Source of the DNA: Planctomycetota bacterium
GTDB taxonomy: Bacteria; Planctomycetota; Phycisphaerae; UBA1845
Reading direction: 5' to 3'
DNA: 64,000 bases
NCBI GenBank assembly: GCA_024276605.1
Contig: JAJRWX010000001.1
Span: 1-64,000 of the forward strand
Of this stretch, positions 6,609-37,306 are shown one piece after another (position 1 is the first letter of the stretch; the number at the start of each line of letters is the position of its first letter). The position numbers were made by a program, and so were the translations under genes. The notes below the pieces were generated by a model. The model ran no database searches and was not told the origin of the DNA. It was given only the letters and a program-made list of their open reading frames with translations.

Positions 6609-6784
6609 TAGTGCTGTGTCACAGCTTAATGTTCGGGTTCATCCAGGGTGGCATGGGCAACGTTTTTTTTGCCCGTGTCGGCCTCCGGAACTACACGGGT
6701 AAGTCCCGATGTATCCCGACTTTACGTCGGAATACATCGGGACTTACCCATGCCATCCGAATTCTTAGCTGTGACAAAACACTA
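6609..6784 (+). repeat. Palindromic MITE/REP-like element, family 1 copy A
   Basis: Terminal inverted repeat TAGTGCTGTGTCACAGCTTA / rc(right) TAGTGTTTTGTCACAGCTAA; internal GGTGGCATGGGCAA...TTACCCATGCCATCC and long stem AAGTCCCGATGTATCCCGAC/GTCGGAATACATCGGGACTT. Homologous to copies at 32535 and 37130. Confidence 0.9.
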
Positions 6785-7243
6785 GTTTTTTGTTTCTACG
6801 GTTAGTTCGAGTTCGACGGCGGCATTGAGTGGTAATTCCGCCACACCGACAGCGGCACGGACATGTCGGCCTGCCTCACCGAAAATATCGGCGAATAGAT
6901 CACTTGCACCGTTGGCGACTTTGGGTTGATCCGTAAAACCCGGCGCACCACTCACATAGACAGCCACACGCACAATGCGGGCGATGTTATCAATACCACC
7001 GGCTAACTCCGCTGCGGCAGCTAACCCATTCATGGCGGACAATCGCGCGGCCCCGATAGCCTGCTCTAGTGTCACATCCTGACCAACTTTTCCACTGCAC
7101 GTGATTTTTCCGTCACGCACAGGAATTTGGCCACTGGTATGAATGAGATTACCGGTGCGGATCGCGGGTATATAACTACCAACTGGTTTAGTTACGGCTG
7201 GGAGTGTGAGAGAAAGGTCAGCCAACTGTTCACTAGGTTTCAT
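6782..7243 (-). CDS. RidA/YjgF family (reactive intermediate deaminase-like)
   Basis: 153 aa; IRTGNLIHTSGQIPVRDG, GARLSAMNGLAA, GVAELPLNAAVELELTVE. TAG stop lies in the end of repeat copy A. Confidence 0.92.
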   Translation of the reverse strand: MKPSEQLADLSLTLPAVTKPVGSYIPAIRTGNLIHTSGQIPVRDGKITCSGKVGQDVTLEQAIGAARLSAMNGLAAAAELAGGIDNIARIVRVAVYVSGAPGFTDQPKVANGASDLFADIFGEAGRHVRAAVGVAELPLNAAVELELTVETKN

Positions 7244-7245
7244 TG

Positions 7246-8271
7246 TTAATCTCCTGATGGAGTGTCATGAATCGCCGAGTGCCGGACCTGTGTCGGACGG
7301 TCTTGCGCCGATGAAGCCGGCTCTACGTCCTTACTTTCTTGATTTAATTCGATATAGCTGCGGTCAACCGATTTTTCAACCAGCGGTTTAGTTGAGACTT
7401 CTTCCTGTTTTACACGGTCAGTGCTTGAGCTATCGTCGTTAACTTGCTGTGACGGGTTTTGGGTTGCGGCGCTACCCTGTTGACTGTCAGCATTGTATTG
7501 TGCGGCATATAAGTTGTATTCAACATCGAGATCATCGACTTCATCCAATGGCGTTGGGTCGAACAGATGAATCTGAATCTCAGAACTATGTGTTGCCTGT
7601 TTTACGCTAATGCGTTTTTGTCGTATGAGTTCCAACAGGGCGAGGAACAATCCAATCATCTCCGCCCGACTTCTTCCAGTAAATATGCTACTGAAGCTAT
7701 ATGCCCCGCCGGCTCTTTGTAGGGTGTCGATCACATCATCGGCGTGTAGTGCTATGGGTGTGTCATCGATGGTGACTTGGTGAGCGACTTCGCTTTTGCC
7801 CGTTTGTTCGAGAATACGGTTGAAAGCATCGAACAGATCCCATAGTTCGAGGTTATCCATTTCGACTTCATCAGGATCGCGCGGCGGTAATACCGGGCTT
7901 CGCATATGTTTTAGGGCTTGCTCAGAAGCGCACGATTCGAGTGAGCGAGCCGCTTCTTTGTACTTTTTGTATTCGAGAAGTTGATGGACAAGTTCGAGAC
8001 GCGGGTCGATCATTTCTTCGTCAAGTTCTTCAGGCGGCGGCGATGGTAATAATAGCCTTGATTTTATTTCCATCAGCGTAGCCGCCAGGATGAGAAACTC
8101 GCCTATGATTTCAGGGTCCAACCGTTCCAACACTTCCACGTATTGCATGTACTCTTGCATGATGCGTGAAATGGGGATGTCGTAAATATCGATCTCCTCT
8201 CGCTGGATCAAAAACAGCAAGAGATCGAGCGGGCCATGATAGACATCGAGTGCTACTCTATAATCACCCAC
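7246..8271 (-). CDS. scpA: Segregation and condensation protein A
   Basis: DVYHGPLDLLLFLIQREEIDIYDIPISRIMQEY, EFLILAATLMEIKSRLLLP; long C-terminal low-complexity tail. 8-nt overlap with trpS. Confidence 0.93.
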   Translation of the reverse strand: MGDYRVALDVYHGPLDLLLFLIQREEIDIYDIPISRIMQEYMQYVEVLERLDPEIIGEFLILAATLMEIKSRLLLPSPPPEELDEEMIDPRLELVHQLLEYKKYKEAARSLESCASEQALKHMRSPVLPPRDPDEVEMDNLELWDLFDAFNRILEQTGKSEVAHQVTIDDTPIALHADDVIDTLQRAGGAYSFSSIFTGRSRAEMIGLFLALLELIRQKRISVKQATHSSEIQIHLFDPTPLDEVDDLDVEYNLYAAQYNADSQQGSAATQNPSQQVNDDSSSTDRVKQEEVSTKPLVEKSVDRSYIELNQESKDVEPASSAQDRPTQVRHSAIHDTPSGD

Positions 8272-9250
8272 GGTGTGTTTCCTTTCCCACCAGCAAACCG
8301 CACACCTCGCGCACCTCAGCCATAACCTTACCGGCCACCGCGCGAGCGCGATGGGCAGCCGTGGTTAATACATCCTCGACATAGTCGGGGTCGGCTTCGA
8401 GTTGCTCACGTTTATCACGGGCCGGACCTAATTCGCGTTCAACCACGTCAAACAGTTGTTGCTTGGCCTCACCATATCCCAAACCGCCACGCCGGTAGGC
8501 TTGTTCAAGTTGTTCTACTTCGTCTGACGTAGCGAGCAATTTGTATATGGCAAAAACGTTACAAGTCTCGGGATTTTTCGGGTCTTGAACGGGGGTGGAA
8601 TCGGTCTTGATACCCATGATTTGCTTACGCACTTTTTTGGGCGGATCGAATAAGTTGATCGTATTGCCATAACTTTTCGACATTTTTTGACCATCCAAAC
8701 CGGGCACGACGTGGGCCTGGTTAAGTCGAATCTGCGGAATCTTTAACACTTCGCAATTAAAGGCATGATTGAAATGTCCGGCCATGTCCGCCGCCATCTC
8801 TACATGCTGGGTTTGATCCTTACCCACGGGGACCACATCGCTTTTATAGATCAATATATCCGCAGCCATTAAGACAGGATAGCAGAACAATCCCATGGAA
8901 GGTGCGATTTCTTTGGCGATTTTATCTTTGTAGGACGTAGCCCGTTCAAGCAAACCTTTTCCTGTGACCGTGGAGAGAATCCAAGCCAGTTCGGCCACTT
9001 CCGGGATGTCGCTCTGGCGAAACAGATTGGCTTTGTCCGGGTCAAGCCCGAAGGCGAGATAGTCCAACGCGACGTCGCAGGTCAATTGACGTAATAGTGT
9101 GGCGTCTTGTATGGTCGTCAGCGAATGGTAGTTAGCTATAAAGTAAAAGCATTCGTTGTCGCGCTGAAGGTGAATGTGTTGCTTCATGGCCCCCAGGTAG
9201 TTACCCAGATGCAATTTTCCGTTGGATTGGACCCCTGACAACACGCGCAT
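8264..9250 (-). CDS. trpS: Tryptophanyl-tRNA synthetase
   Basis: MRVLSGVQSNGKLHLGNYLGA, DQTQHVEMAADMA, GLDGQKMSKSYGN (KMSKS). Confidence 0.97.
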   Translation of the reverse strand: MRVLSGVQSNGKLHLGNYLGAMKQHIHLQRDNECFYFIANYHSLTTIQDATLLRQLTCDVALDYLAFGLDPDKANLFRQSDIPEVAELAWILSTVTGKGLLERATSYKDKIAKEIAPSMGLFCYPVLMAADILIYKSDVVPVGKDQTQHVEMAADMAGHFNHAFNCEVLKIPQIRLNQAHVVPGLDGQKMSKSYGNTINLFDPPKKVRKQIMGIKTDSTPVQDPKNPETCNVFAIYKLLATSDEVEQLEQAYRRGGLGYGEAKQQLFDVVERELGPARDKREQLEADPDYVEDVLTTAAHRARAVAGKVMAEVREVCGLLVGKETHRG

Positions 9251-9358
9251 ACGCTAAACCTCCTTTGCAGGAAAGGTCGGCGTTTGTGAGGCTGTTGTCA
9301 AGACTGTCGATCTCGAAGAGTCGTGAGAGGGTCCGTGACAGATTAGGCGGGCTTGAGT

Positions 9359-9525
9359 GGGGTGGCATGGACAAGCGTCGCGTTGAAGGAATCGCGGATG
9401 AAAAGAGGCGTAGGGGCGACGCTTGCCCGTGCTTTTCCTCGGTTACGCCTGCACGGGCAAACGCCGCGTGCAGCATCCATTGGACATTCGACAGCCCGAT
9501 TCCGCGGCGTTTGTCCATGCCACCC
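9359..9525. repeat. Cruciform-like palindromic repeat
   Basis: Left GGGTGGCATGGACAAGCGTCGC versus rc(right) GGGTGGCATGGACAAACGCCGC; nested stems CAAGCGTCGC/GCGACGCTTG and CCCGTGC/GCACGGG. Confidence 0.8.
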
Positions 9526-9623
9526 AATCGCCATTTTGTCATGCACCCCGGTGAGAAGCGTGTGCCCGGCATAAGCTTGACCGTCGCTTGTGGGGGCAGG
9601 ATACTGTTCTTTTCTACGGGGGA

Positions 9624-10118
9624 ATGAGACGATTTATGGATTTCGCGGCCATTCAATTGCTGATTCTCGATGTGGATGGCGTACTTACTGATGGCTGCAT
9701 CGTCACAACCGCCGACGGGGAGTTGCAGAAGGCGTTTTATGTCCAAGATGGCTTTGCGCTCAAGCGATGGCAGGCAGCCGGTCACGAAGTGGCCTTGCTA
9801 ACGGGAAGAGAATCCGAAGCTGTAGCTCATAGAGCAGCTGAACTGGGCATTACGCGTGTTTGTCAGGGCGTTGAGGACAAAAGCAGCGTGTATCGATCTT
9901 GGCTCGCCGAGATCGGTGTGTCCGATAAGCAGGTCGCATACGTAGGCGACGATTGGCCCGACCTCGACGTGATGCGACGGGTGGGACTTCCCATAGCCGT
10001 GGCTAACGCCGTACCCGCCGTGAAGCGTGTCGCTGATTATGTCACGCGCCGTCGTGGAGGCTATGGTGCGGTGGCGGAAATCATCGAACTTATTCTGCGA
10101 AAGCAGAACCAATGGTAA
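9624..10118 (+). CDS. kdsC: KDO-8-phosphate phosphatase-like HAD hydrolase (KdsC family)
   Basis: LLILDVDGVLTDGCI, ALLTGRESEAV, YVGDDWPDLDVM; start 9624 or 9636. Confidence 0.9.
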   Translation: MRRFMDFAAIQLLILDVDGVLTDGCIVTTADGELQKAFYVQDGFALKRWQAAGHEVALLTGRESEAVAHRAAELGITRVCQGVEDKSSVYRSWLAEIGVSDKQVAYVGDDWPDLDVMRRVGLPIAVANAVPAVKRVADYVTRRRGGYGAVAEIIELILRKQNQW

Positions 10119-13100
10119 GTCATACATCAACAAATCGCCGATCGAATCGTCCACGTAGGGCTATGCGCATGCGCCGTCGCGCTAGCGGCCTGCTGCGCGG
10201 GATTGTCGTTAGCCTGGCGACACTGGCGATTTTACTCGTATGCTTTTCCATTTATCAGTTCAGCCAAATCGATCCGCAAGCTACTCAATCGCCTCAGGTT
10301 TCTCGCTTGCCGCAGTTACCACAAAAAAAATTGGGCCAGGAGCAGCATTCCAAAGATGGCGTACCTGTGTCGGGTGGTCGTGTGGGGACGGTGCTGCGCA
10401 GTAAGCTTTCGTTGTTTCGTCCCGATAGTGACCGAGCCTGGGGCGAGGTTGAAGTGGGGCGACTGACACCCGTCGCAGGGCAGGCCAACGAAATGGCGCT
10501 CGATAACCCGGTGATTCGACTTCGCACGCAGGATGGACATGGCGTACGCATTACGGCTAAGGAAGCGATCGTGGAGGGTCGAATCAGTCATGGTTTAACA
10601 CCCGTGCGGGGCAGGTTGTTTAGCGGCGTCGTTATTGAATATGATCGATTGTCCGAGCAGCAACGGGCACTTCTACCTGAAGATACGCGTCATGTGTTGG
10701 AACCGTCTCAAGTCGTACGTATCGAAGCGGATGAAATCGTGTTTGATGTAGAGTATTCAAAAGTTGTCGTACCAGGCCCCCTGGCCATACTTGCCTCGGA
10801 TGTGACGTTTCGGTCAGCCAATATGGAGATACGTTTTGATGAATCAGCCGGTCGTGTTGATTATCTGCACATTGAAAGCGGGGGGACGATTGAACTGAAA
10901 GGTGGAGCCGGAAACTTGGGCATGACGGATACCCAGGAGACGGAGCCGGAGAATTCGGTGGTTGATTGGATTCGACAGACCATTACCGCACGCATATTGG
11001 CCGCACAGCAACATCAGGCTGCAACGGACGTGATGGATGAAGGAGCGCAGGTCGCTGCTACTGACGACGCGCTTCCGGTGTTCTCCGTGACGGATGATCC
11101 TTCGGAGGCTGAGGCGGCGAAGCCTACGTTGAAGTATATTGCGCGCTTTGCAGACACTGTCGATGCGAGACAGGTGGTCAGCAACAAAACGGTTGCACGG
11201 CTCGAAGCGGATACGCTTGAAATTCTACGTAGTGTATCAGCTGATGATCGGCGGCAGGTACAAACGCAAACCGACTTGCAGGAAAGTAAGTCGCAACAGG
11301 CATCGGAGAATTCCGACGAAACCATTTCACTGACATGGAAGGGACACTTTTTATTGGAAGCCTGCGCAAAAAACGATGCGCGGTGTGCGCCGGCTGTCAG
11401 GTCTCTACTCACGGCTACGGGGGCACCTGTTAGACTCTCCAACGACGAAGGTGAAGCCACGTGCGGCCAATTGATATACAACCCGGATGATGGCAGCGTG
11501 AAGCTCAATGAACTGGGGGAAACGACGGTGGTGGTTCGTTCTCTGGCGGAAGGCGAGATTCACGGGCGAGGTATCGAATTGCATCCCGATGACGAGACGA
11601 TCGTTATCCACGTTACCGGTCCGGGAGTCTTGGTGCGTAACGACCATGCGTCAACCTCTTCGAGAACCAGAGGCGGCATGTTGACTGGTCAATCATCACC
11701 ATCACAAACCGTCAATAAAAACACGAAAACGAGAAAAGCTTTATCTGTCACGTTCAGCGAAAGTCTGGATGTCACAGGCCATTATGAGAGTCGTAGCAAG
11801 TTGAGCTTTTCAGAAGGAATTCGACGCACACGAGAACGTGTACTCGACAAAGCGGTTTTTGTCGGCCATGTATCGCTCAAAGAGCAAGAGGCATCGCTCG
11901 CAGCAGATCATCTCGCGTTATACTTCGGCAAGGAGACCGTCGGGCGTCAGCAAGAGCAAACCATACGGCGTGTCGAAACAAGAGGCCATGTGCGACTCGA
12001 TCGACTCCATGATAGTTTGGTCTGTAGCGAACTGGATGTCATCGTCACGACCGACGCCGATGGCCGGTTGATGCCTTTGGTGGCCACAGCGAAAAGAGAC
12101 ATCGTAGCCACACAGGAGGACCGGACGATTCGTGCACGCGACCGCCTCATCCTGGACTTTCAAACCGTCACACGCCCTGCCCCACCGTTTGATGCAAATA
12201 AGGCTTACCAAGCTGCGTTGAGCGCTGGTGTAAATCCTCAAGAAGTTGACTGGGAGGCAAAGCGACGTGAGCACGAAATGAAGGTGCGTACGGAAATCGG
12301 GGCGAAGCGGTTGCGGGCCTACGGCGATGTGATGGTGACGGACGAATCTCAGGCTTTGGAATTGACTGCGCAGGAATTGGATTGTTCGATTGTCAATGGT
12401 AGTGACATAGATAAGACATTGATTGTCGGTACGCAAACGCAGCCCGCGTCGGTCACTATCGGTGAATTCACCGTGACCGGCGAGCAGGTCAATGTGAACG
12501 TGCTCGATGAGTGGGCGCAGGTTCCCGGTGCTGGACGTATGACTTTTCAATCACACAAAGATTTGGACGGCAGGCAACTGGAACGCCCCATCCCGGTATC
12601 GATTACGTGGGAAGAGTGGATGAAATTTCAGGGTCGAGAGAATCGTTCTGTTTTTTCAGGAGATGTCCACGCCACCAGCGCCGGCGGTACCACGTTTGAT
12701 TGTCAACAATTGGTCGTCGAGTTTGACGATATTGCCCCCGCCAAGACTCAGTCACAACGGGGTCATTGGTGGATTTTTGATAAATTCTTGCAACGATTTG
12801 AACGCGATCAACAGCACCGCATGGCTAAGCGTGGTATACTCGCTAAGGAGCCGGCCTATATATTGGCCACGGGGCGAGCTGTGGTGCAGACAACATTTAT
12901 GGATGAGGTTACGGGGGCCTTGCGAACCCGAGCACGTCTCGCCGGTCCGCAACTATCGGTCAACTTGCGGCGTGGGATGTCAAAAATGCTCATCGAAGGT
13001 GCCGGCGATTTACTGATTGAAGATTTTCGGCCCGCCAGCGACGCTACCGCACAACATAGCGAGGCATCACCACGCGGGTTTTTTGGGACAGAGGCCGATG

Positions 13101-13615
13101 CAGGGCCATCGAAAACATTTGTTACATGGGCAGAGGCAATGTGGTACGACTTTTCCATCGATCAAACACGATTTGAGGGTGATATTAACTTAAAGCACTT
13201 CAGCGGAGACAATTTACAACGCCTCTTTGGCAATGCGAAGCTTGTCAGCACGGAAACCACTTCGGGGCGCGCGACATTTTTATCCTGTGATGTCCTGACC
13301 ATCGATTTTCTTGGCCGGCAATCAGCCGGAATGCGCTCGCAGCAGCAAATGGGTAGATTAAGCACGACACAGTTGCGCCAGTTCCATGCCTCAGGCCAAG
13401 TGAAACTACAAGACCAAACGGAAGGACTTTCTTTAACTGCCACTGACCTGACATTCGAACGTGATCGAGAACTTCTCATTATACAAGGTCAACCCGCACG
13501 CATTATTCAACAACGCCAGGGACAATTGCCGGTCGATGCCACCGTGAAACGGGCCTTCTATAATTTACGCACCAAAAGACTCGAATCACAGCAAGCGATT
13601 ATTCGTGGCCGATAG
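10112..13615 (+). CDS. Large LptC/LptA (OstA)-like envelope protein
   Basis: 1167 aa, N-terminal TM/signal anchor, repeated OstA-like beta patterns (GKLVST..TFLSCDVLTIDF, GHVSLKEQEASLAADHLALYF, ASGQVKLQDQTEGLSLTATDLTFERDRELLIIQGQPARI); starts inside the end of kdsC. Confidence 0.7.
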   Translation: MVSHTSTNRRSNRPRRAMRMRRRASGLLRGIVVSLATLAILLVCFSIYQFSQIDPQATQSPQVSRLPQLPQKKLGQEQHSKDGVPVSGGRVGTVLRSKLSLFRPDSDRAWGEVEVGRLTPVAGQANEMALDNPVIRLRTQDGHGVRITAKEAIVEGRISHGLTPVRGRLFSGVVIEYDRLSEQQRALLPEDTRHVLEPSQVVRIEADEIVFDVEYSKVVVPGPLAILASDVTFRSANMEIRFDESAGRVDYLHIESGGTIELKGGAGNLGMTDTQETEPENSVVDWIRQTITARILAAQQHQAATDVMDEGAQVAATDDALPVFSVTDDPSEAEAAKPTLKYIARFADTVDARQVVSNKTVARLEADTLEILRSVSADDRRQVQTQTDLQESKSQQASENSDETISLTWKGHFLLEACAKNDARCAPAVRSLLTATGAPVRLSNDEGEATCGQLIYNPDDGSVKLNELGETTVVVRSLAEGEIHGRGIELHPDDETIVIHVTGPGVLVRNDHASTSSRTRGGMLTGQSSPSQTVNKNTKTRKALSVTFSESLDVTGHYESRSKLSFSEGIRRTRERVLDKAVFVGHVSLKEQEASLAADHLALYFGKETVGRQQEQTIRRVETRGHVRLDRLHDSLVCSELDVIVTTDADGRLMPLVATAKRDIVATQEDRTIRARDRLILDFQTVTRPAPPFDANKAYQAALSAGVNPQEVDWEAKRREHEMKVRTEIGAKRLRAYGDVMVTDESQALELTAQELDCSIVNGSDIDKTLIVGTQTQPASVTIGEFTVTGEQVNVNVLDEWAQVPGAGRMTFQSHKDLDGRQLERPIPVSITWEEWMKFQGRENRSVFSGDVHATSAGGTTFDCQQLVVEFDDIAPAKTQSQRGHWWIFDKFLQRFERDQQHRMAKRGILAKEPAYILATGRAVVQTTFMDEVTGALRTRARLAGPQLSVNLRRGMSKMLIEGAGDLLIEDFRPASDATAQHSEASPRGFFGTEADAGPSKTFVTWAEAMWYDFSIDQTRFEGDINLKHFSGDNLQRLFGNAKLVSTETTSGRATFLSCDVLTIDFLGRQSAGMRSQQQMGRLSTTQLRQFHASGQVKLQDQTEGLSLTATDLTFERDRELLIIQGQPARIIQQRQGQLPVDATVKRAFYNLRTKRLESQQAIIRGR

Positions 13616-14088
13616 CGGGCTTACTCGCAACCAAGTGCGAGTCATTAAATAAATACCCGTAAACAGCACAAATACTGCTCCAAAACCAGCTTTATTTGCG
13701 GAGAACACTTCATGGTGAGCACTGTACACATTTTTTTTTACATTTCACTTGTCTCCGATAATGCGCGGGGCATACAATGGTGCAGTGAGTTCGACTGCTA
13801 CAACCAAACCCTTATGTTTTGCAGCGGAAAGAACTCTGATGCCTCGGCGACATTGGTGCGCATAGTGTAAAAACTTGGTGCGCGCGATGACGAGGCATGA
13901 CCACGGGTGCATAGTTATTATCCTACACTGATACGATTGAAACAAAGCCGTAAGCATAGGGCCGACAAGGCCGTCAATGCTTAACAGGCGATTGATTTTC
14001 CTGAGGGGAAAGATTGTAAAGGAATGGGCCTGCGTTGTGTCTATCCATGTGCTTTCCGTGCGGGGAAAGAGGTAGCCACAACAAAGGT

Positions 14089-14145
14089 GATGGATGCTTG
14101 GGTGTCAGAACCGTTGGAGCGCGAGCCTTCACCCAAGCGTCCATC
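14089..14145. terminator. Inverted repeat (possible terminator/REP) 3' of purN
   Basis: GATGGATGCTTGGGTG (14089-14104) / CACCCAAGCGTCCATC (14130-14145), 15/16 paired; lies between convergent genes. Confidence 0.45.
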
Positions 14146-14190
14146 CGTTCCTCTATCGAGTGAATATACGTTTGACGTACATGGCATCCG

Positions 14191-14811
14191 CTACTCTGGT
14201 AGCATGACCACCCTACCGTTTTCCAAGTGAATGCGCTGTTCACAAAACAACCGTAACGCATCGGGGTACGCGATGCATTCCTGTTCAAAAATACGTGTAG
14301 CCAGTGTCTCGGGTGTGTCATTATCGGTCACCTGGACCTTGCGCTGTAAAATGACTGGTCCATGATCATATTCGTTATCACAAAAATGGACCGTACAGCC
14401 ACTTTCTTTTTTACCCGCAGCAAGCACCGCCTCGTGTACGCGATGACCGAACATCCCCTGACCGCCAAATTCGGGTAATAGTGCAGGGTGAATGTTTATC
14501 ACGCGCCCTAGAAATGATTCCGGAATGCGCCATAGCGACATAAACCCAGCCATACATACAAGATCAACCGCCTTCACCGCTTCGGTGATCTTGGCTTGAA
14601 ATGCTTCAACAGGAAGTTGTTTGCGATCAATGATGACGGTTTTCAGGTCGTATTGTTGTGCGCGTTCGATACCGGCTACATCGGCCCGCGAGCTGATGAC
14701 GATATCAATCTTCGCGTTGAGTTGCTGGTCACGGATATGTTCGTGCAGGTTGGCCATGGTACGACCACCACCGGACAACAGCACAGCCAAACGCAATCGT
14801 TTGTGGCTCAT
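14191..14811 (-). CDS. purN: Phosphoribosylglycinamide formyltransferase
   Basis: LAVLLSGGGRTMANL, VCMAGFMSLW, INIHPALLPEFGG, GCTVHFCDNEYDHGPVILQ. Confidence 0.92.
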   Translation of the reverse strand: MSHKRLRLAVLLSGGGRTMANLHEHIRDQQLNAKIDIVISSRADVAGIERAQQYDLKTVIIDRKQLPVEAFQAKITEAVKAVDLVCMAGFMSLWRIPESFLGRVINIHPALLPEFGGQGMFGHRVHEAVLAAGKKESGCTVHFCDNEYDHGPVILQRKVQVTDNDTPETLATRIFEQECIAYPDALRLFCEQRIHLENGRVVMLPE

Positions 14812-14878
14812 GATTGGGTCACTTCCACGATCCAGTGTGGTGTCGTAGGGCGTTCTGTGCTTGAGCGTAACCTTAAAA

Positions 14879-17869: not shown

Positions 17870-17991
17870 GATGATTGTCCTGAAAAGAAATATAACCTGT
17901 CGTTAATGTTGCTTCGATCATAATCTTCTTAGTACAAGCGTCAATCGACATGCGTGGGATTCGATCAACGGGTGAGGGATGGATAAAACGT

Positions 17992-19542
17992 CTATTCCCA
18001 CTCGATCGTCGAGGGCGGTTTGGAGGAGACATCGTAAACCACACGATTAGCCCCACTGACTTCGTTGATAATCCGGGTTGAGATTCGACCGAGTACTTCA
18101 TAATCAATGCGCACCCAGTCCGCCGTCATAAAATCAGCACTTTCCACAAAACGCACCGCGATCACATGTTGCCCGGCATAACTGCGGTCATCACCCATCA
18201 CACCGACTGTGCTAATCGGTAGCAATACGCCAAACGCCTGGGCGATTTTGTTATACCAACCGGCTACACGTATTTCCTCGAGAATAATATCGTCAGCCGC
18301 TCGTAGAATACGCAATCGCTGTGGTGTAATCTCTCCCATAATTCGCACGGCTAAGCCTGGTCCGGGGAAGGGGTGTCGCCAGACAATCTGCTCAGGAAGC
18401 CCCAAGTGCTCACCCACGCGGCGGACCTCATCTTTGAAAAGATCACGCAATGGTTCAACCAATTCAAAACCAAGCTTTTCGGGTAATCCACCTACGTTGT
18501 GATGCAGTTTAATGTTAGCTGCGATGCCGGCTGCACTATGTCCCGATTCGATCACATCGGGATAAAGCGTTCCTTGAGCAAGAAAACGTGCCCCATCGAT
18601 TTTTTTTGCCTCAGACTTGAAAACCTCGATGAACTCATGGCCAATAATTTTTCTCTTTTCTTGCGGGTCCGTAACACCGGTTAGTCGAGAGAGAAATCTT
18701 TCAGACGCATCCACGGACCGCAGGTTCATATGAGAATGTTGCTTAAACGTGGCTTCCACAAGATCAGTTTCGCGGTTACGCATCAAGCCGTTATCAACAT
18801 AAATACAGATCAGCCGATCGCCAATAGCTTCGTGAATGAGTGCTGCGACGACACTGCTATCGACACCACCGGACAGGCCGCAAATCACGCGATCCGTTTC
18901 GCCGACCTTCTCGCGAATCGCTTTGATCGACTCGTCCGCGACGTGATCCACTTGCCAATCTCCGGTGCAATGGCAAATGTCATAAAGAAAGTTGCGAATG
19001 ATCTGGTTGCCGCAAGGTGTATGAAAAACCTCCGGATGAAATTGCACACCGTACATCGGCCTACTTTTATGTCTCATCGCGGCGTAAGGGCAGGTATTTG
19101 TTTTTGCCAGTGCAATAAAATCGCCTGAAAGTTCTTTCACGATATCGCCATGACTCATCCAAACCGTAGCCTGCGTGGGCACATGATTCAATAAGGCATC
19201 TTCCACGAAAATTTCGAGCTGAGTACGACCGTATTCGCGTGATTCACCCGCACCGATATCAGACCCCAATAAATCGCAGGCCAGTTGCATGCCATAACAA
19301 ATGCCCAGCACGGGAAGACCCATGTCCATAATCTCCGGCGAGCATGTTGGGGCATCAGCCGCGTACACGCTGGCCGGACCGCCGGAGAAAATGAGACCGA
19401 CCGCGTGATGATCGCGTATCTCCTGCGGCGAGACGCTGGGGGATACGATCACGCTATGCACGCGGTTCTCGCGTACCCGCCGGGCAATTAACTGGACGAA
19501 TTGGCTACCAAAATCGATGATGACTATAGTTGCAGGTTTCAT
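17992..19542 (-). CDS. guaA: GMP synthase (glutamine-hydrolysing)
   Basis: [50 protein letters not shown]-terminal PPSTIEWE. Confidence 0.97.
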
Positions 19543-19718
19543 GTCTGTTTGATTCTCAATGATGTCTCGATCATGATAGGTTCTCGTCCCCCGGATGTGT
19601 ACATAGTGAAATTCTGGAGACCATCTGTCAAATCAATCAGCGGACACGATCTTTTCTTTGATTGTGCTAAAAAAACGCAGTTCTGTTCGTTTGTACCAAT
19701 CCAGTGCGGTCATACTAT

Positions 19719-25431: not shown

Positions 25432-25599
25432 CCGATTAGTTAACCTGAATCACCGCGTCCCCTCCAATGGATTTGGCGAAACCGAAGTACTCCCCCCATG
25501 CTCTATACTTAGGTTACTGCGGCATAGTGATCAAAGTCAACAATCAATTTTTTCGGACCATAATCACATATCGAAATATGATACATATCAATCCTCTGG

Positions 25600-28167: not shown

Positions 28168-28493
28168 GCTTCCCCCCCCAGACTCGCGATTTCGGACAAG
28201 CCAACTATACGCACACTTACAAGATGCATGCAAACCGTTGGCATGTATCGCTACCTATAAATACACACCGCATACTAAAACTATAGCACTTCATAACCGA
28301 GTATTCAATGGTCCGGGACACAGGTTGCGTGCCTGTATCCATGTTCCGAAAACAAGCGAGTAGGGCGATTGTCATACCGAAACATTATGGCGAAAGCTAA
28401 CCAGGCTATGGCTATGTGGATGATAAATGCAGCCAGAAGTGGTGAGTCCGATATAATCCTGTTTGAATCAATCGTCTCACTGCCAAAGACCTA

Positions 28494-29035
28494 CTACAGG
28501 TAATTAAGTAGGTTTATCATTTTTGAGAACCGTGTAATGACAGTGAGCAGCTCAGTATGTATGGTAACCAACGCCTCGAGAATCCAGATCCTCAGTGTTT
28601 GCGATGATGTCTCCAGTTTCGTAGTTGTAAATCCAGCCCAAAGCCCCGCATTCTTGTTAACCGATGGTGGATCGTTGGTTTGCAATTCAATTCCGATAGC
28701 CCCGACATACGGGCCGACGGTCAGTGGAGGAATGTTGTGTAGGTACGGTCTATAGATGTTTATGCCGACGGTGTTTCCGATGTTGCCGGCTGCGTCGGTC
28801 TTCAAAAGTCAATTGATCGATGAACGTCGTCTCCAAGCTGTCGGCGCCTAGCCATTGACCGCTATGTTCAGCATGGTACAGGTCAATAGCTGTTCGAAAC
28901 GTCTTTAAGTTAGCACGTACCGCAGTTTCATTAACCGCTATAGCGCCGCGGCTAATACGCGGAACGGCGAGAGCTTCGATGATACCAAGTAATGACAATC
29001 ACGATGACCAGTTCGACTAGCGAGAAGCATGGGTT
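28494..29035 (-). pseudogene. Degenerate type II secretion/type IV pseudopilin (PulG-like)
   Basis: Minus strand carries CFSLVELVIVIVI, LGIIEALAVPRISRGA...LKTFRTAIDLYHAEHSGQW...FIDQLT, and KTDAAGNIGNTVGINIYRPYLHNIPPLTVG in three successive frames. Confidence 0.8.
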
Positions 29036-29243
29036 TCTAAACTGCCGAAGTGACTACAGATTACCTACCATAGATAATGGTGTATCGACGACATGCATGG
29101 ACATGGCAAGCACGCCTCATCTGTAACATCTTTGAGTAGAAAACGCGCGAGTTAAGATCAATACAACGAAGCGATCAAATGTTTCATGGGATAGTTTTAC
29201 CAGCGCTCACCTTTCGGCCTTGTTTTGAAAAGCCTGACCCTGG

Positions 29244-30167
29244 TTATGGCCCTGCGATCATCAAGGCGTAGGCCAGCCCGGCAGTGGCCAGGTGAATAAT
29301 GAGCGGAACCAAAAAGCTGTTGGTCCGATAGGCTATGAATGCCAATATAACTCCACCAGGGAATGAAAGGATCAATTCTCGTGGATCTTTACTCAGGTGA
29401 ACCAAGCTAAAATGTAGTGCCGACACGAAAACTGCGATCAAGCAACCATCCGGCATCCCCAACCATCGCGTAGCGGCCAGTAGGCCTTTAGCCCCTTTTG
29501 TCGGTTGTGCCAATCCGAACCATTGCAGGTTTCTCTTTCTGCCGCTGGTCGTTGAGATGTGTACCTCAGCGACACTCGGCCAACGTAATCCTTGCCGAGC
29601 CAGTGCCAACACCACGCCGTGAAACAAAAAATGCTCGGTAAACATATTCAAGATGTTGTAACTAATAAACACAGCATGACCGGCTCGTTCGATATGAGGC
29701 TTATAATAAGGGGTAAAATGCTCACTTTGTGTCATCCACACGACGAAAGGAAGTGACAACAGGACGCTGACGAAAATAAGTCTGATGCCGATTTTGTTCG
29801 GCAGGCGAAGCCCCAAGTCAGCGGGCTTGCCTCGTCCGATGATGAGCATCATCAGGTAGGGCATGATCCCGAGGCACAGCACCATGTAGGCACCATTGCG
29901 TAATTCAAAAGTAGCGGGGCCTACATATATGGATCCCACAGCTGAAGAAATCCCACGGACAATTGGCCCGTAAAACAACCGTTGCACCGCCCGCATGGGT
30001 GCCGGCCAGTCTGATGGAAAGAAATCTAATAGCGCCAGGCTGTACACAAACGAAATAAGGATAGCGACAACGCATACGGCTGATGATCCGTGCCTCCTTG
30101 GGGTGCAAGTTACCGTGGTACTATCCATTGGCTTCTTCCGCTTCATCGCCAAGACTAAACGCTCCAT
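29244..30167 (-). CDS. CPBP family intramembrane metalloprotease
   Basis: Multi-TM; TEHFLFHGVVLALARQGL, ALHFSLVHLSKDPREL. Confidence 0.7.
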   Translation of the reverse strand: MERLVLAMKRKKPMDSTTVTCTPRRHGSSAVCVVAILISFVYSLALLDFFPSDWPAPMRAVQRLFYGPIVRGISSAVGSIYVGPATFELRNGAYMVLCLGIMPYLMMLIIGRGKPADLGLRLPNKIGIRLIFVSVLLSLPFVVWMTQSEHFTPYYKPHIERAGHAVFISYNILNMFTEHFLFHGVVLALARQGLRWPSVAEVHISTTSGRKRNLQWFGLAQPTKGAKGLLAATRWLGMPDGCLIAVFVSALHFSLVHLSKDPRELILSFPGGVILAFIAYRTNSFLVPLIIHLATAGLAYALMIAGP

Positions 30168-30720
30168 CGTGATCGTATAGGCAACGCCGTCGGGCGGGTT
30201 GTCCTATGATGAGTCGGTATCGGTCTTTAGATTGTTTGCTCAGTGGCACTGGAAACTCCGCAGTGTAGCATCGATACGATATAATTCCGCATCACTTTAT
30301 CGGAATATGAAAGTTATTGGAAAGAAATACGTTAGTGGACGGGTTTCATTGATAGATGCTTAAAACGGGAATATACTGAGGTGCGGTTCTCATTGTGCGG
30401 TTTTGGTGTTTGAACGCCCGCAGTGAGTGAGCCGGCGGTGCATAGAAAAACGAATCGCAACAGGGTCTGTTGCTTAATTGTGTGCCCGCTAATAGACAGG
30501 GGAGAGAAGTCAATCACAGGGGGAAAAAGTACTCTTTCAATTCCATAACGTGGGTCATTGGCCTGTTCAGTGTACGGCAACGCCTGAGATGCTTGAGTAT
30601 TCCGGCTGGTATGTTTGTCGTCGCTGAGGAGTGGATTTACTCCGGGGCTTTTGGCAATGATGGCACTCGCTTGTGGCTTGAGAATGCTCTCACTGAATCT
30701 TCAATTGGGGATGATGTAAC

Positions 30721-32517
30721 ATGGTAAGTAATTCGTCGCATATTATATTGGCTTTAGTGACTATGCTCTGCTACGCCGCTAACGCACATGGCCAAGTGGT
30801 CACAGCTGATGATTGTGCAAACCCTGATGTGATTAGCGGTCTAGGCTTATTTGATTTCAACAATCTTGCGGCGACATCCATCGGACCGGACCATCAAGCT
30901 TGTTTAGACATTGGGGAAGCTGGTATCGGCTCGGATGTGTGGGCGCTTTGGACGGCTCCTTGTACGGGTTTTGTCAAGCTGGACACCTGTGGCACAACGA
31001 CGATTGATACTAAATTAGCGGTCTACTCGGGCAACCTTTGTCCGATCGACGATAGCACTCTGTTGGATTGCAGTGATGATGACATTGATTGCTTGTTGCA
31101 ATCGCGTGTGTGGTTTCAAGCGACGCAAGGTGCGCAGTATCTCATTCGATTGGGCACTTACCCCGGCGAACCTCCCGGTCTGGGTAGCTTTAACCTGGAT
31201 ATGGTTTGCGATACGCTGGCGTGCAGCGAACCTATAGAAAACTGCCAAGCTTTAGATTTTACCGGCGCGACGGCCAGTACCGGTGATACGATTCGCATCG
31301 CAGAAAACTTCACGCCCAACTGCAGTGGTGACTTATCGAGCATTTGCTGGTGGGGTGAATACGACACCCTCAATCCGCGATTGGATGCTTTTACCATTCG
31401 TTATTACGACGATAATGGTGGCGTGCCTGGGAATTTACTTGCGACATTCGTCCAAGGAACCTCGCTGAGCGTGACGGCGCCTCTACTTGTCGCCGATGGT
31501 ATAGACGCTGGTAATCGTTTTACCATCTATGGATACACGGCAAATCATGCCCCGTTACCTATGTTGTCCAATCAGCAGTATTGGGTGGAAATTACCAATC
31601 CGACAGGCTTGTTTGGGGACTGGTTTTGGGGGTTTGCACAGTTTGGCGATGAGATTTCAGTACGCGACATCAACCCGTTTGGTTACGAGCAAACCGATCT
31701 CCAAACGCGCAACTATGCCTTTTGTACGAATTTATTGCAATCCCCACCCCCGGAACCTTTGTGCGTGAGTGCGACGGGAGCGTGCGATACTGTGGGCATC
31801 ACGCCGGGCTGTGATGACTTATCCTGTTGTGAGCGTGTGTGTCAGTGTGATCCTTGCTGCTGTGAGGCGGATCCCACGATTCCCGGTTGCTTAGGCATCT
31901 GGGATGCTGCTTGTGCAGGATTTGGGGCGGGTAACAGTGGCTGTGGTGCGGCGGCGATTTGCGGCGCACCTTGCGGCGCGTGTGTGGATATTGATGTAGC
32001 TGATCCCACCAATTGTTCGATGGACATAGCCATCCCCCATGATCGCGGGAGTAGCTCACCGGCCTTTGCGCCTTCAACCGTGACGCTGACGATGACCAAC
32101 GGCGGGGATACGGATTGCGATACGTCCAACGTAAACTTGGCCAATTTCACGATTAGCTTCGAACCTATGATACCCGCAGGTGCACCGGATATATTTGATG
32201 TACTGGTGATTGATAACGTGGCTATGGTGGAACTAACCGGACCCTTACCTGCCGGTGTTTGGACATGTATAACGCATAGCGCCGGTGCCAAAGTATGCAG
32301 TGGTCAGCTACCGGGTGACATCGACCGAAATGGTATGAGTGACGCCTCGGATGTGGGTACGATGAAGGCAAATTTGTCCGTAGGCTCCGCCGAGGACATC
32401 GACCGAAGCGGCTCAGCTAATACGCTTGACTTACTAACTACGCTCGACCTATTAGCCGGGGCGGATGCCTTTGGTGTGCGGATCGACGAGTTTGCCGGCC
32501 CCTGTCCAACGCCGTGA
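30721..32517 (+). CDS. Secreted Cys-rich protein with C-terminal dockerin-like region
   Basis: Signal peptide; CCERVCQCDPCCCEADPTIPGCLGIWDAACAGFG Cys motif; GDIDRNGMSDASDVGTMKANLSVGSAEDIDRSGSANTLDLLTTLDLL. Confidence 0.7.
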   Translation: MVSNSSHIILALVTMLCYAANAHGQVVTADDCANPDVISGLGLFDFNNLAATSIGPDHQACLDIGEAGIGSDVWALWTAPCTGFVKLDTCGTTTIDTKLAVYSGNLCPIDDSTLLDCSDDDIDCLLQSRVWFQATQGAQYLIRLGTYPGEPPGLGSFNLDMVCDTLACSEPIENCQALDFTGATASTGDTIRIAENFTPNCSGDLSSICWWGEYDTLNPRLDAFTIRYYDDNGGVPGNLLATFVQGTSLSVTAPLLVADGIDAGNRFTIYGYTANHAPLPMLSNQQYWVEITNPTGLFGDWFWGFAQFGDEISVRDINPFGYEQTDLQTRNYAFCTNLLQSPPPEPLCVSATGACDTVGITPGCDDLSCCERVCQCDPCCCEADPTIPGCLGIWDAACAGFGAGNSGCGAAAICGAPCGACVDIDVADPTNCSMDIAIPHDRGSSSPAFAPSTVTLTMTNGGDTDCDTSNVNLANFTISFEPMIPAGAPDIFDVLVIDNVAMVELTGPLPAGVWTCITHSAGAKVCSGQLPGDIDRNGMSDASDVGTMKANLSVGSAEDIDRSGSANTLDLLTTLDLLAGADAFGVRIDEFAGPCPTP

Positions 32518-32534
32518 TCGGTGACAAAAGGGGT

Positions 32535-32709
32535 TAGTGCTTTGTCACAGCTAAGAATTCGGGTGGCATGGGCAAGTCCCGATGTATCCCGACCCTACGT
32601 CGGGGTACATCGGGACTTGCCCGTGTAGTTCCGGAGGCCATCACGGGCAAAAAAAGCCTTGCCCATGCCACCCTCGATGATCCAAACATTAAGCTTTAAC
32701 ACAGCACTA
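32535..32709 (-). repeat. Palindromic MITE/REP-like element, family 1 copy B (inverted relative to A)
   Basis: Reverse complement aligns nearly end-to-end with copies A and C; CTAG-type termini. Confidence 0.9.
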
Positions 32710-33066
32710 GCTAACCGAGGCGCCGGCTTCTATATCGCTATCCGTGGTGACGACAATCACCCGTTCGTGGCCGGCATCGCTAGCAGCCAGCAGCATACCC
32801 TGGCTTTCCAACCCGCGCATCATGCGCGGCGCGAGGTTGGCGACGATGATGAGATGCTTACCCACAAGTGATTCCGGGGTGTAATAGCCGCGCAAGCCGG
32901 CACAAATCTGACGCTGCTCATCGCCGAGGTCTACCTGAAGTACGATCAATTTATCCGCATTGGGGTGGTCTTTGGCTTCGACAACCCGGCCAACGCGTAG
33001 TTTGACCTTTACGAAATCGTCAAAAGTAATGGTATCATCATTGGTTGGTGTTGGTTGATCGGCCAT
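32707..33066 (-). CDS. Stand-alone tRNA-binding (EMAPII/MetRS-beta-like) domain protein
   Basis: ITFDDFVKVKLRVGRVVEAKDHPNADKLIVLQVDLGDEQRQICAGLRGYYTPESLVGKHLIIVANLAPRMMRGLESQGMLLAA. TAG stop lies in the end of repeat copy B. Confidence 0.9.
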   Translation of the reverse strand: MADQPTPTNDDTITFDDFVKVKLRVGRVVEAKDHPNADKLIVLQVDLGDEQRQICAGLRGYYTPESLVGKHLIIVANLAPRMMRGLESQGMLLAASDAGHERVIVVTTDSDIEAGASVS

Positions 33067-33227
33067 GCGCTCCTCGTGTTGTTCGGGATTCCAAGTCGTA
33101 GATGTCTGCTATCATTATCTTACCATCACGAGTGTACTTGGTCAGCAAATCGTTCGCAACCGAGCAAAACAGTGGAAAGACTGATGCGGGTGTGTGACAG
33201 TATCGGCGGCTTTAATGTCGTGCTCAA

Positions 33228-33482
33228 GTGCAGCCTGAAAGGCTGACCGACAGTAGCCGTGGGCAAGTCCCGCTTGTTGCGGGACGCCGCCCACGGTAAC
33301 TGCAGCGCCCGTATAAGTGAACCCTGAAAGGGGTCGTATAAGCGTAGCCTCGCAATACGCACGCCATCGAATATACGACCCTTTCAGGGTCGGACGACTC
33401 GTCGGCGACGCTATCCGGTGGCGACGTCCGCCTGAGGCGGACTTGCCACCGGCTACTATCGAGCAGACTTTCAGCCTGTAAG
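33228..33482. repeat. Composite nested palindromic repeat
   Basis: Outer arms CCTGAAAGGCTGACCGACAGTAGCCG / rc CTGAAAGTCTGCTCGATAGTAGCCG; ACCCTGAAAGGGGTCGTATA / TATACGACCCTTTCAGGGT; hairpins CCGTGGGCAAGTCCCGC-GCGGGACGCCGCCCACGG and CCGGTGGCGACGTCCGCC-GGCGGACTTGCCACCGG. Confidence 0.85.
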
Positions 33483-33754
33483 CCCCACCCGCTGATTCTG
33501 TCATTTAGCCAGACTGATGTGTGGCTAAAGAATCGCAACCATTGCTTGCGGACATAAGCTACGTCTCTACAATTCAGTGGAGACTCAATGGCGAATGTGC
33601 TTTCTATTAGAGCAAGGTTTTTGTTGTGTAGCGGTAACCGGTACAAAGAAAGACGTTTTCGTCCGGCACATCCGCGCGGGCTAAAGCCGGTGGCTCGTTA
33701 CACAATAAGTGATGCTGCTCTAAGCCGTGATCTTTTAGCTATTGGCATGACATA

Positions 33755-34876
33755 ATGAAACTTTATCCACTGACATTTGATCCTATATTCAAACCTAAAA
33801 TTTGGGGCGGGCGAAAGCTGCAAACGCTGTTGGGTAAAAAACTGCCGCCGGATGTGCCCATTGGTGAATCCTGGGAAATTGCCGATCTGGAAGACGATCA
33901 ATCGATCGTAGCTTTTGGACCTGCCAAGGGTAAGACGCTCCGTGAGATGATGGACCTTTGGGGAACTGATTTACTTGGGGCGGCTGAGCCGTTCGAAGGG
34001 CGCTTCCCTTTGTTGATAAAATTCTTGGATGCCAGCGAGACGCTTAGTGTTCAGGTCCATCCGGACATGGCTATGGCTAATCGGCTGGGTGGACGGGTGC
34101 GTATTAAAAACGAAACGTGGTACGTCGTAGCTGCCGAACCGGATGGCCATATCTATCGTGGTGTGCGTGAAGGCGTCGATGCGCAGGCATTGCGTGCGGC
34201 TATCGACGATCATGGTGTAGAAGATTTGCTCAACAAAATACCCGTTAGCCAGGGGCACGCCTACTACCTACCCAGCGGGACGATCCATGCCCTAGGCGCT
34301 GGGGTTGTGGTCGCTGAGGTGCAAACGCCATCGGACATTACCTATCGCGTGTTCGATTGGAACCGCGTCGAAGAAGCGACAGGCAAGCCTAGAACGCTAC
34401 ACGTAGATGAGGCGATGCAGTGCATTTCGTTTGATACTACCCCCATCGCAGGAGAAGATGTACATCACATAGCCAGTGTCTGGACCTCGCAAACTCAGTT
34501 GATCCGATGCGAATCGTTCGCGCTGGACCGCGTGCGCATGGCCGGGGGTGTTGACCAGACTATTCCGACGGATGGTTTCGTGGTTTGGATGTTGTTGGAT
34601 GGCGAAGTGAGGATCCGTTGTGAAGGATTCACTCAGCCGTTTACCTTTGTGGCGGGCCAAACCATTTTAATTCCTGCCGGGATAAAAGGGGCAAGGGTTG
34701 AGAGTGAAATATCTTCGATGTGGTTGGAGGCATCACTGCCTATCGCTAGCCCGTTGAGTGCCTTTGAAAGGCCGGAGAGGGAAAGTCCAGGCGATGCACA
34801 CCAAGCGCACGAAACATTAGTACAAATAAAAACACCCGAACAATCTCGGCTGACAGGTGACAAGCAAGGCGGTTAG
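33755..34876 (+). CDS. manA: Class I mannose-6-phosphate isomerase
   Basis: FKPKIWGGRKLQTLLGKKLP, GESWEIADLEDD, FPLLIKFLDASETLSVQVHPDMAMA, YYLPSGTIHALGAG. Confidence 0.93.
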   Translation: MKLYPLTFDPIFKPKIWGGRKLQTLLGKKLPPDVPIGESWEIADLEDDQSIVAFGPAKGKTLREMMDLWGTDLLGAAEPFEGRFPLLIKFLDASETLSVQVHPDMAMANRLGGRVRIKNETWYVVAAEPDGHIYRGVREGVDAQALRAAIDDHGVEDLLNKIPVSQGHAYYLPSGTIHALGAGVVVAEVQTPSDITYRVFDWNRVEEATGKPRTLHVDEAMQCISFDTTPIAGEDVHHIASVWTSQTQLIRCESFALDRVRMAGGVDQTIPTDGFVVWMLLDGEVRIRCEGFTQPFTFVAGQTILIPAGIKGARVESEISSMWLEASLPIASPLSAFERPERESPGDAHQAHETLVQIKTPEQSRLTGDKQGG

Positions 34877-34919
34877 TTGCTCTTAGCAGAGGCGCTGACC
34901 CAATTCAACCATAAGCCTG

Positions 34920-35804
34920 GTGGGAAAGAACGTAGCAGAAATGCCCTTATTTACAGTAGAAAAACTTCGGCGGGCCAAGAAAACGATTTATATCGTGGCC
35001 TGCATGTACATCGTGGTCGGATTATTGCTGGCGGTTACAGCCGCATTAGCCGGTGATCGTTTGAGTGCGTTCTTAGGTTTTCTTATTATCACCGGCGCGT
35101 TGGCTTGTGGCGCGGTGCTGGTGGTGTTGCTACGTTTTGGCGTGCATTTATCAAACATTGGCGATCAACTGCAGCAGTTACATAACCAACTGATCAAAGT
35201 TCAACACATACAACGGCAGTTTAACTCTGCGGTGGTAGGCGAGGCACCACAAAAATCGTTGACGAAACCGGGGAAGCAAGACCAACAAGTTGATGAGGTG
35301 CTCGTAGCCGCTACGTTGGACAGAAGCCGCTTTCCTCGTTTGGCTAAAATCATGGATAGCGAACCATCCGGTCAATCTTCTGCAGATGGTGTCTCGTCGA
35401 AAGAAACAACGTCAACCAATGGTCGACGACATGACGTTGAGGTCAAAACACCCGTGAGCAAGCGTACACTCATAAAACTGCCGCGCACGTGGCAGACCGC
35501 GCATCGCGAAGGGGATATCGTGGCTTGTCGGGCGATGTTGTCTACGTATATGGACACGGCTGAGCCGGCAGCGGTCGAGGTGATGACCGTTCAACTTGAA
35601 CAACTCATCGATCAAGCGGCTGCCCATTTACGTCAATCATTCGTCGGCCACATTCATAATGAGGATTATGCTGGTGCGCTAGCGGTGGGTCATCGCATCG
35701 TCGAGCTTATGCCTGAGCACGGATTGGCTGAGGAGTTCAAGCAAATCAAACCACATCTCAATGAGCGTGTCAGGCAGATCGAACAAACTGCGGCTTTGAT
35801 GTAG
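34920..35804 (+). CDS. Hypothetical membrane protein
   Basis: Two N-terminal TM segments, then charged helical C-terminal part (possible coiled coil). Confidence 0.6.
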   Translation: MGKNVAEMPLFTVEKLRRAKKTIYIVACMYIVVGLLLAVTAALAGDRLSAFLGFLIITGALACGAVLVVLLRFGVHLSNIGDQLQQLHNQLIKVQHIQRQFNSAVVGEAPQKSLTKPGKQDQQVDEVLVAATLDRSRFPRLAKIMDSEPSGQSSADGVSSKETTSTNGRRHDVEVKTPVSKRTLIKLPRTWQTAHREGDIVACRAMLSTYMDTAEPAAVEVMTVQLEQLIDQAAAHLRQSFVGHIHNEDYAGALAVGHRIVELMPEHGLAEEFKQIKPHLNERVRQIEQTAALM

Positions 35805-35826
35805 TGTTTGATGAAGCGCGACTACA

Positions 35827-37098
35827 TCAGTAGGCGCGCTGCAGGCGGCTACCGGGGAAATAGTATCGCAGGATTTCTGCAGCACTTTTCCCCTCCCGTG
35901 CCTGCCCCTCCATGCCCCATTGGCAAAGGCCAAGTCCATGGCCAAAGCCTCGACCGTTGTCAAAGATAACCGTTTCTCCGGATACACGCATGCGAAAATC
36001 AGAACTGCGAAGCTGATTGCCGCCGATAGCGAGTCGGAACTGTTCGACCAGCATGTCGTGATGTTGATCGTCTTTGCCTCGGAGGCGAATGGTGACTGGT
36101 CGCCCCTGTGCCGAGCGCTGGACGATGGATAAATCGCGCAGCGTGCCCAGAGAGCGCAATGAATCATAGCGGGCTACTATGCGACGGAAAATCTCGTGTT
36201 TTGTCAGGCGTACCGGCTCCCAGCGGTAGGTATTTCCCGGTGCGATTCGGCAATAATCGCAAGCGACACCACCGGCCAGGGGCGCTATGTCGTCTTCCGC
36301 TCCGAAGATAGCCGCTGACTGGGTCATACCTCCACAAGCTGCGCTGTAATAGGTACGTATGATCTGTGATTGCTTGCCATCGTCATAGATACAGACGATG
36401 CCTTCCGTATACTTGGTAGCTTGTATAGCGCGCCGGCCTGTGCGGTCCTCACGCAATCCAGCATACACTTGCGAGCCTTGTCCATCGGTTACATCCCATG
36501 ACTTCGATTGTCTTCGTTGCATCTGCCTGAGTACAAAGCTGCGGGCTATGATGGCCTGGGCGCGGTAGGCCTGCTTGGCAAAGGTAGGCCAAACTTCTCG
36601 GGCGACGACACCGGCAACATAACTTTCCACGTCTACATGGTTGACGATGTTAATATGGCCGGTGTCAGAGAGAGAGCACCGCATTGAACCGGGGTACGAA
36701 ATGACATCTTGCCACTTTCTATTTTTATACTTTGATAATTCTATCGGCGCAATCTGTGACGATTGCACGATGACTTCCTGTGCGTCGTACACAACGTCGT
36801 CTATTTCGATCACTCCTTGCCGGGCGCGGATAGACATCCACTGATGAGGCGCAGCTTGATGGAGTATATCACCCGCTGTATTTTCGAAAGTGAGTGAGTC
36901 TGTGGAGCGAACTTTGAATAGCTTTACGTTTGAGCCGATCAACACGCGAACGCTGCGCAAGGGTGTTTCTGTCTTGGTGGTAGTGATTATTTTCGCCTCT
37001 GCGGATGAATGGATGATGACAAGCAGTGCCGCATAGCGTAACCAGACCGGTATTAGCGAAACGTAGGTGTTGGCCATATCCCTGGGCGTTGTTGACAT
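35827..37098 (-). CDS. SpoIID/LytB domain protein
   Basis: INIVNHVDVESYVAGVVAREVWPTFAKQAYRAQAIIARSFVLRQM; YYSAACGGMTQSAAIFG; GFGHGLGLCQWGMEGQAREGKSAAEILRYYFPGS. Confidence 0.92.
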   Translation of the reverse strand: MSTTPRDMANTYVSLIPVWLRYAALLVIIHSSAEAKIITTTKTETPLRSVRVLIGSNVKLFKVRSTDSLTFENTAGDILHQAAPHQWMSIRARQGVIEIDDVVYDAQEVIVQSSQIAPIELSKYKNRKWQDVISYPGSMRCSLSDTGHINIVNHVDVESYVAGVVAREVWPTFAKQAYRAQAIIARSFVLRQMQRRQSKSWDVTDGQGSQVYAGLREDRTGRRAIQATKYTEGIVCIYDDGKQSQIIRTYYSAACGGMTQSAAIFGAEDDIAPLAGGVACDYCRIAPGNTYRWEPVRLTKHEIFRRIVARYDSLRSLGTLRDLSIVQRSAQGRPVTIRLRGKDDQHHDMLVEQFRLAIGGNQLRSSDFRMRVSGETVIFDNGRGFGHGLGLCQWGMEGQAREGKSAAEILRYYFPGSRLQRAY

Positions 37099-37129
37099 AA
37101 GGGCTGATCCGACATCGTGTGCGGTTAGC

Positions 37130-37306
37130 TAGTGCTGTGTTACAGCTTATGTTTCGGGTTCATCGTGGGTGGCATGGGCAAAGATTTTTTTTGCCCGTGG
37201 CGGTCACCGGAACAACACGGGTAAGTCCCGATGTATCCCGAGCTAGCTTCGGGATACATCGGGACTTACCCATGCCACCCGAATTCTTAGCTGTGTCAAG
37301 GCACTA
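37130..37306 (+). repeat. Palindromic MITE/REP-like element, family 1 copy C
   Basis: Flanked by CTAG on both sides; same TIRs and internal hairpins as copy A; long stem CCCGATGTATCCCGA/TCGGGATACATCGGG. Confidence 0.9.

Follow-up and report, generated by a model that had tools for sequence, protein, structure and literature searches.

Three palindromic repeats of about 176 bp, dispersed over 64,000 nucleotides of planctomycete DNA (contig JAJRWX010000001.1 of assembly GCA_024276605.1, positions 1–64,000 of the forward strand, called the window below), raise the question of which kind of mobile unit could have produced them. A sequence-only reading had named them a “MITE/REP” element. We consider it probable that they represent a miniature inverted-repeat transposable element (MITE) of the IS630/Tc1-mariner type, which carries a captured REPIN, i.e. 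a pair of inverted repetitive extragenic palindromes (REPs). The first half of the earlier name was borne out by terminal inverted repeats (TIRs), the TA/CTAG target, sites left empty in congeneric genomes and a multi-copy insertion sequence (IS) whose ends match, while the second half is valid only for a separate module inside the MITE. The copies in the window and their parts are located as follows.

6609..6784, + strand: copy A, 176 bp including the flanking TA on each side
6609..6628, + strand: left TIR of copy A, matching the right end of the IS
6765..6784, − strand: right TIR of copy A, matching the left end of the IS
6646..6758, no strand: REPIN core of copy A, GGGTGGCATGGGCAA...CCATGCCATCC, two inverted REPs
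6652..6677, + strand: hairpin 1 of copy A, CATGGGCAA / TTGCCCGTG
6697..6749, + strand: hairpin 2 of copy A, 24-bp stem with the tip CTTTACG at 6720–6726
32535..32709, − strand: copy B, 175 bp, convergent genes on both sides
32561..32673, no strand: REPIN core of copy B, hairpin-2 tip CGTAGGG
37130..37306, + strand: copy C, 177 bp, tandem genes on both sides
37167..37280, no strand: REPIN core of copy C, hairpin-2 tip GCTAGCT

Strictly, the element comprises GTG...CAC; the TA on either side of it is a duplicated part of the CTAG target. Positions and strands proposed for the three copies were reproduced, the copies align end to end over their whole length, and all details ascribed to them (20-bp ends, GGGCAA..TTGCCC hairpin, CCCGTG..CACGGG pairing and a long stem) were found. 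Fold prediction, suggested earlier as a check, showed copy A to be far more stable than shuffled sequences, none of which folded as well, both as DNA (−53 kcal/mol, z −10.5) and as RNA (−101.5, z −13.3). The number of copies had been greatly underestimated. In the host genome, the metagenome-assembled genome (MAG) of an uncultured planctomycete with 4.5 Mb in 110 contigs, the pattern of the 20-bp terminal repeat has 162 (82 + 80) near matches and the internal motif GGTGGCATGGGYAA, comprising tag and stem, has 175 (85 + 90), versus 1 + 1 and 0 for the reversed-pattern controls, and the family thus numbers dozens of copies rather than three. The exact number is an estimate, since about 0.78 Mb outside the window were sampled as stretches. 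Copy A as a query gave 155 candidates, and all 40 that were scored matched (40/40). Both ends were read in 47 copies, 38 of them near full length; shorter versions with the same ends measure 108–143 bp. As expected of a MITE, the element is non-coding, shorter than ~300 bp and dispersed in many copies. In a public genome collection the pattern derived from the ends matched only Planctomycetota MAGs (Planctomycetaceae, Pirellulaceae, Phycisphaerae), and paired copies of these ends ~110–145 bp apart were registered at many other Planctomycetota loci. At loci L061, L066, L069, L078 and L082 (108 bp) a MITE with the same IS630-type ends has another core (GATCAGAGCCGCGACCGTGAGGGAGCGGAC) and no REPIN.

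A search for an IS with ends matching the TIRs, likewise proposed from the sequence, revealed an IS630-family IS, present in the host genome in multiple copies, whose ends are identical to those of the MITE in 28/30 and 23/30 bp. It was found through its ends, because searches with the IS630 and DDE_3 profiles returned only a decayed fragment. No complete IS630 transposase gene is assembled in the host genome, in line with the earlier description of the element as non-autonomous, and for this reason we infer mobilisation in trans rather than state it. The left end of the IS, TAGTGCTTTGTCACAGCTAAGAAT (in some cases with 1–2 changes), is present at 13 contig junctions, at nearly all of which it runs into an open reading frame (ORF) starting MQKKYVVRLSDEERDTLREV; the other end encodes the C-terminus TLREETAAWSTDVNATQRGVDWQMKIEDARCKLKSVYPKIKA. 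These TIRs were not found flanking the IS630 genes fetched from relatives of the same family and the same order. A complete relative of the IS was registered in a Phycisphaerae MAG (L149, positions 5534–6758 of JAJDDY010000027.1). It is 1225 bp long, has both TIRs and contains two overlapping ORFs, which between them span the IS630 model NF033545 (positions 1–107 and 114–297) and match the DDE_3 domain PF13358, and its C-terminus is nearly the same as that of the IS in the host genome. The two frames of this transposase meet at CTTAAAAAAAC (A7 run), which is likely to be a programmed-frameshift site.

The base outside the TAGTG...CACTA ends is C on the left in 42/47 copies, G on the right in 44/47, and both in 39/47; a CTAG target has been reported for IS630 (in works referenced in PMC2170065). 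Empty-site orthologues, named in the sequence-only reading among its refuting conditions, bear on two copies of the window. The place orthologous to that of copy C in congener G001 is an unoccupied AGCTAG, exactly the expected empty site, and the spacer of convergent genes orthologous to that of copy B contains no copy in either congener, G001 or G002. Insertion regenerates CTAG at both ends, and a copy once inserted can in turn receive another. Since the CTAG target contains the stop codon TAG, many copies are situated exactly on a gene stop. Enough flank was available at 89 element ends. At 13 of them the element's TAG is the exact stop of an open frame of 100 codons or more, and among the 15 long open frames that run into an element, 14 are read in the TAG-closing frame, though not all of the frames counted are proven genes. 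In the window the right end of copy A provides the TAG stop of the YjgF/RidA-like gene 6782–7243 (−), and an end of copy B that of the ORF 32707–33066 (−). Of 25 copies whose flanks could be read, 11 are located between convergent ORFs, and divergent neighbours were seen for none. Duplication of TA within C-TAG would rebuild the stop codon, and such insertions should be nearly neutral and hence tolerated at gene 3' ends. At loci L016, L025, L027 and L061 elements or IS ends are joined directly as CACTAGTG.

The interior of the element is organized differently. Element positions 38–150 (113 bp) read GGGTGG-CATGGGCAA..TTGCCCGTG, spacer, CACGGGYAAG..CTTRCCCATG-CCACCC, and form two GGGTGGCATGGGYAA hairpins, i.e. 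an inverted REP pair with GTGG tags facing outwards. GTGG-CATGGGCAA..TTGCCCGTG and its inverted partner thus have the anatomy of a REPIN, in which each of two inverted REPs combines a GTRG tag with a hairpin. GTGG tags have been documented for REPs associated with tyrosine transposases (RAYTs) of Pseudomonas fluorescens (PMC2817692) and for Opitutus terrae (PMC3733652). In the host and both congeners the REPs are abundant, extragenic and present outside the MITE: GGTGGCATGGGYAA was counted 175 times in the host, 11 times in G001 and 41 times in G002, versus 0–1 for the reversed control. In other genomes the counts are 175 (G020), 20 (G012 and G018) and 10 (G035, another family), again versus 0–1. 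In G001 and G002 most REPs are solitary hairpins that lack TIRs and whose flanks are unrelated, while those of G020 and G035 are inverted pairs ~78 bp long. In the ~0.85 Mb of the host genome that were read directly, some REPs likewise lack these ends. The search for a RAYT, another check named in the sequence-only reading, showed that RAYTs with REPs of the same head exist in the clade, their stems being different from those of the MITE. The RAYT gene of G011 (L192), which scores over the cut-off of the model NF047646, is flanked by GGGTGGCATG hairpins, as are RAYT genes in G012, G001, G002 and the host; the host RAYT (L320, G000:C23:18000-20300) has an apparent C-terminal frame loss and flanks formed by GTGTGGCATGCCCAAGCC / GGGTGGCATGCCCAAGCC REPs. 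The two strongest Y1 transposases of the host genome (contig C18) were rejected as candidates, being IS200/IS605-like and not flanked by the REP of the MITE. The MITE end at L196 (C18:98692) is truncated; ~0.4 kb away there is an IS200/IS605-like tyrosine transposase gene, which is flanked by its own CCGTGGG-type repeats.

Borders between the two parts are visible in incomplete copies. In thirteen copies away from contig ends only one end matches, and in nine of them homology stops no more than 2 bp from position 38 or 150, i.e. at the REPIN edges; under a uniform-breakpoint null nine edge stops were never reached in 200,000 draws. Some of the one-ended copies may have other IS630-like second ends. 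The same GGGTGGCATGG head was also found in a longer REPIN within a second repeat of ~220 bp with different ends (GGGTGCAWGACARATTRGGCGGG), represented by five two-headed copies in the 0.85 Mb examined.

9329..9549 of the window, no strand: second element type, ~220 bp, REPIN with the same head (GGGTGGCATGGACAA...) inside the different ends
C109:132908: copy of the second repeat
C23:99321: copy of the second repeat
C23:123896: copy of the second repeat
C14:92646: copy of the second repeat

At C23:57265 an end of the first type is joined to a REPIN and an end of the second type. In our interpretation, the edge stops and this joined copy reflect an exchange of modules along the borders of the REPIN. 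In G020 and G023 the REPINs at L263, L266 and L274 seem to be bounded by CTAG or CACTA ends of different sequence; such REPINs in other genera hint at independent captures.

The sequence-only reading had also noticed that the loop of the long stem differs between copies. The differences are real, but for the most part the loop does not vary freely: a 7-nt tip is inverted exactly. Copies that are otherwise nearly identical carry CTTTACG or CGTAAAG at the tip of hairpin 2 or, in another subfamily, CTATACG or CGTATAG, the variants of each pair being exact reverse complements. The conclusion that preserved arms mean conserved secondary structure holds only in part. Over the whole structure 14 cells have both sides changed versus 2.5 in shuffles, all of them in hairpin 2, and the terminal stem has none. 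Nearly all both-side changes lack one-sided intermediates (e.g. UA 29, CG 6, none between), which together with the tip flips fits turnover at the DNA level. Inversion of the DNA palindrome and templated correction would explain the tip and arm patterns at least as well as selection on RNA, which is possible but not required, and which we do not prefer in view of UA-to-CG and CG-to-UA changes with almost no one-sided intermediates.

One can assume that the structured core originated within an ordinary IS630 MITE, so that the GGGTGGCATGG hairpins found elsewhere are decayed MITE remnants. A large share of exact REP heads in the fetched host sample indeed have a TIR within 60 bp, and some REPINs of G020, G018 and G023 have CTAG-like or CACTA ends nearby. 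Nevertheless this explanation seems unlikely, as it leaves aside the single hairpins with unrelated flanks in G001 and G002, which contradict the expectation that REPs should be absent from relatives lacking the MITE, as well as the same head flanking RAYT genes and residing in the second element between unrelated ends, and breakpoints that fall at the REPIN edges. Movement of the whole unit by a RAYT, with flanking inverted repeats being incidental or hitch-hiked, would agree with the anatomy of the core and with related RAYTs of the clade that have matching heads, but we find it very improbable, because full-length copies keep both IS-type ends and the CTAG/TA target, a signature of IS630 not expected of RAYT movement. 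Equally little weight can be given to the copying of a functional unit that acts as a conserved structured RNA (a terminator, a riboswitch or a small RNA). The element folds very stably and follows directly on stop codons, often where two genes converge (11/25), but the Rfam search gave no match at the gathering score, the terminal sequences and the CTAG target are kept rather than structure alone, and tip inversions with double changes having few one-sided intermediates point to turnover of DNA. An artefact of assembling a fragmented MAG, suspected on the grounds that the element or its IS is the place where many contigs break off, is hardly credible: copies of the window lie within a 68-kb contig and differ in their flanks, syntenic flanks without copies exist in the congeners, and 47 paired copies have distinct flanks.

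Several points weigh against an IS630-type MITE with a captured REPIN as well. The interior of the IS falls in assembly gaps of the host genome, a MAG of 110 contigs, and the junctions are those of the assembly. Copies A and B show ATAG and TTAG at the target, not CTAG, so that the CTAG rule is a preference. REPs flanking the RAYTs share with the MITE REPs the GGGTGGCATG head, not the stem (CATGCCC versus CATGGGY), and the RAYT of the host looks frameshifted; for these two reasons no cognate RAYT can be named. Finally, for part of the one-ended copies another second end is conceivable, as L070 and L099 finish near CTAG.

For the MITE with a captured REPIN the following scheme can be suggested from the sequences compared. 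An IS630-family transposase acting in trans most likely excises the MITE and places it at the TA of a CTAG, which duplicates this TA. In an ancestor a REPIN, a type of repeat whose spread is normally due to RAYT (Y1) transposases, may have been captured between IS-derived ends and then amplified as cargo of the MITE. The edges of the REPIN behave as module boundaries. The long palindrome would flip and self-correct as DNA, probably by hairpin or cruciform template switching. More tentatively, and with less confidence than in the capture itself, REPINs of these planctomycetes may be viewed as exchangeable cassettes, which enter and leave unrelated MITEs at fixed edges and are spread by two independent machineries, Y1 RAYTs (single-strand) and DDE transposases (cut and paste); the preference of the DDE carrier for CTAG and stop codons would place REP hairpins at the 3' ends of genes, with a possible influence on transcripts.

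REPINs and MITEs are kept apart as two classes of small bacterial repeats, served by different transposases. An element which is both joins the two classes and offers REPs a route of spreading without a working RAYT, which could explain 175 REP heads in a genome whose REP-flanked RAYT looks decayed. The stop-restoring target gives a simple reason for tolerance to the element and its gathering at gene 3' ends, and exact tip inversions make its copies a natural record of palindrome turnover.

Each half of the element, IS630 MITE and REPIN, is of a known kind, while for their combination no description was found in open-access full text, subscription papers lying outside this scope. The closest counterparts, compared by anatomy only, are RUP and the Correia elements. 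RUP of Streptococcus pneumoniae, a MITE of IS630-Spn1 (PMC3049150, PMC2229807), is likewise short, non-coding and structured, has TIRs like those of a resident IS630, uses a TA target and exceeds 100 copies, but it is an AT-rich simple repeat of 107 bp with no REP/REPIN core, whereas the planctomycete element is longer (176 bp), contains a hairpin core and uses CTAG and the stop codons of genes as insertion sites. Correia elements (NEMIS), for which derivation from IS630 has been described (PMC2817692), resemble it in size (~105–155 bp), long TIRs, TA ends, several size classes and intergenic location, but according to the cited papers contain no REP pair. IS630 and ISY100 of the Tc1/mariner/IS630 family (PMC2170065) share with it the CTAG/TA target, TA duplication and a DDE transposase of the same family, but are autonomous, and differ from the planctomycete relative (L149), whose transposase is split in two frames at the A7 run. 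With REPINs and RAYT REPs (PMC3116915, PMC2817692, PMC3733652) it has in common two inverted REPs, a GTRG-type tag beside an imperfect hairpin, and REP-flanked RAYTs; the planctomycete REPINs are distinguished by many copies locked inside IS630 ends, probably spread by a DDE rather than a Y1 transposase, and by MITE REP stems that differ from those beside the resident RAYT.

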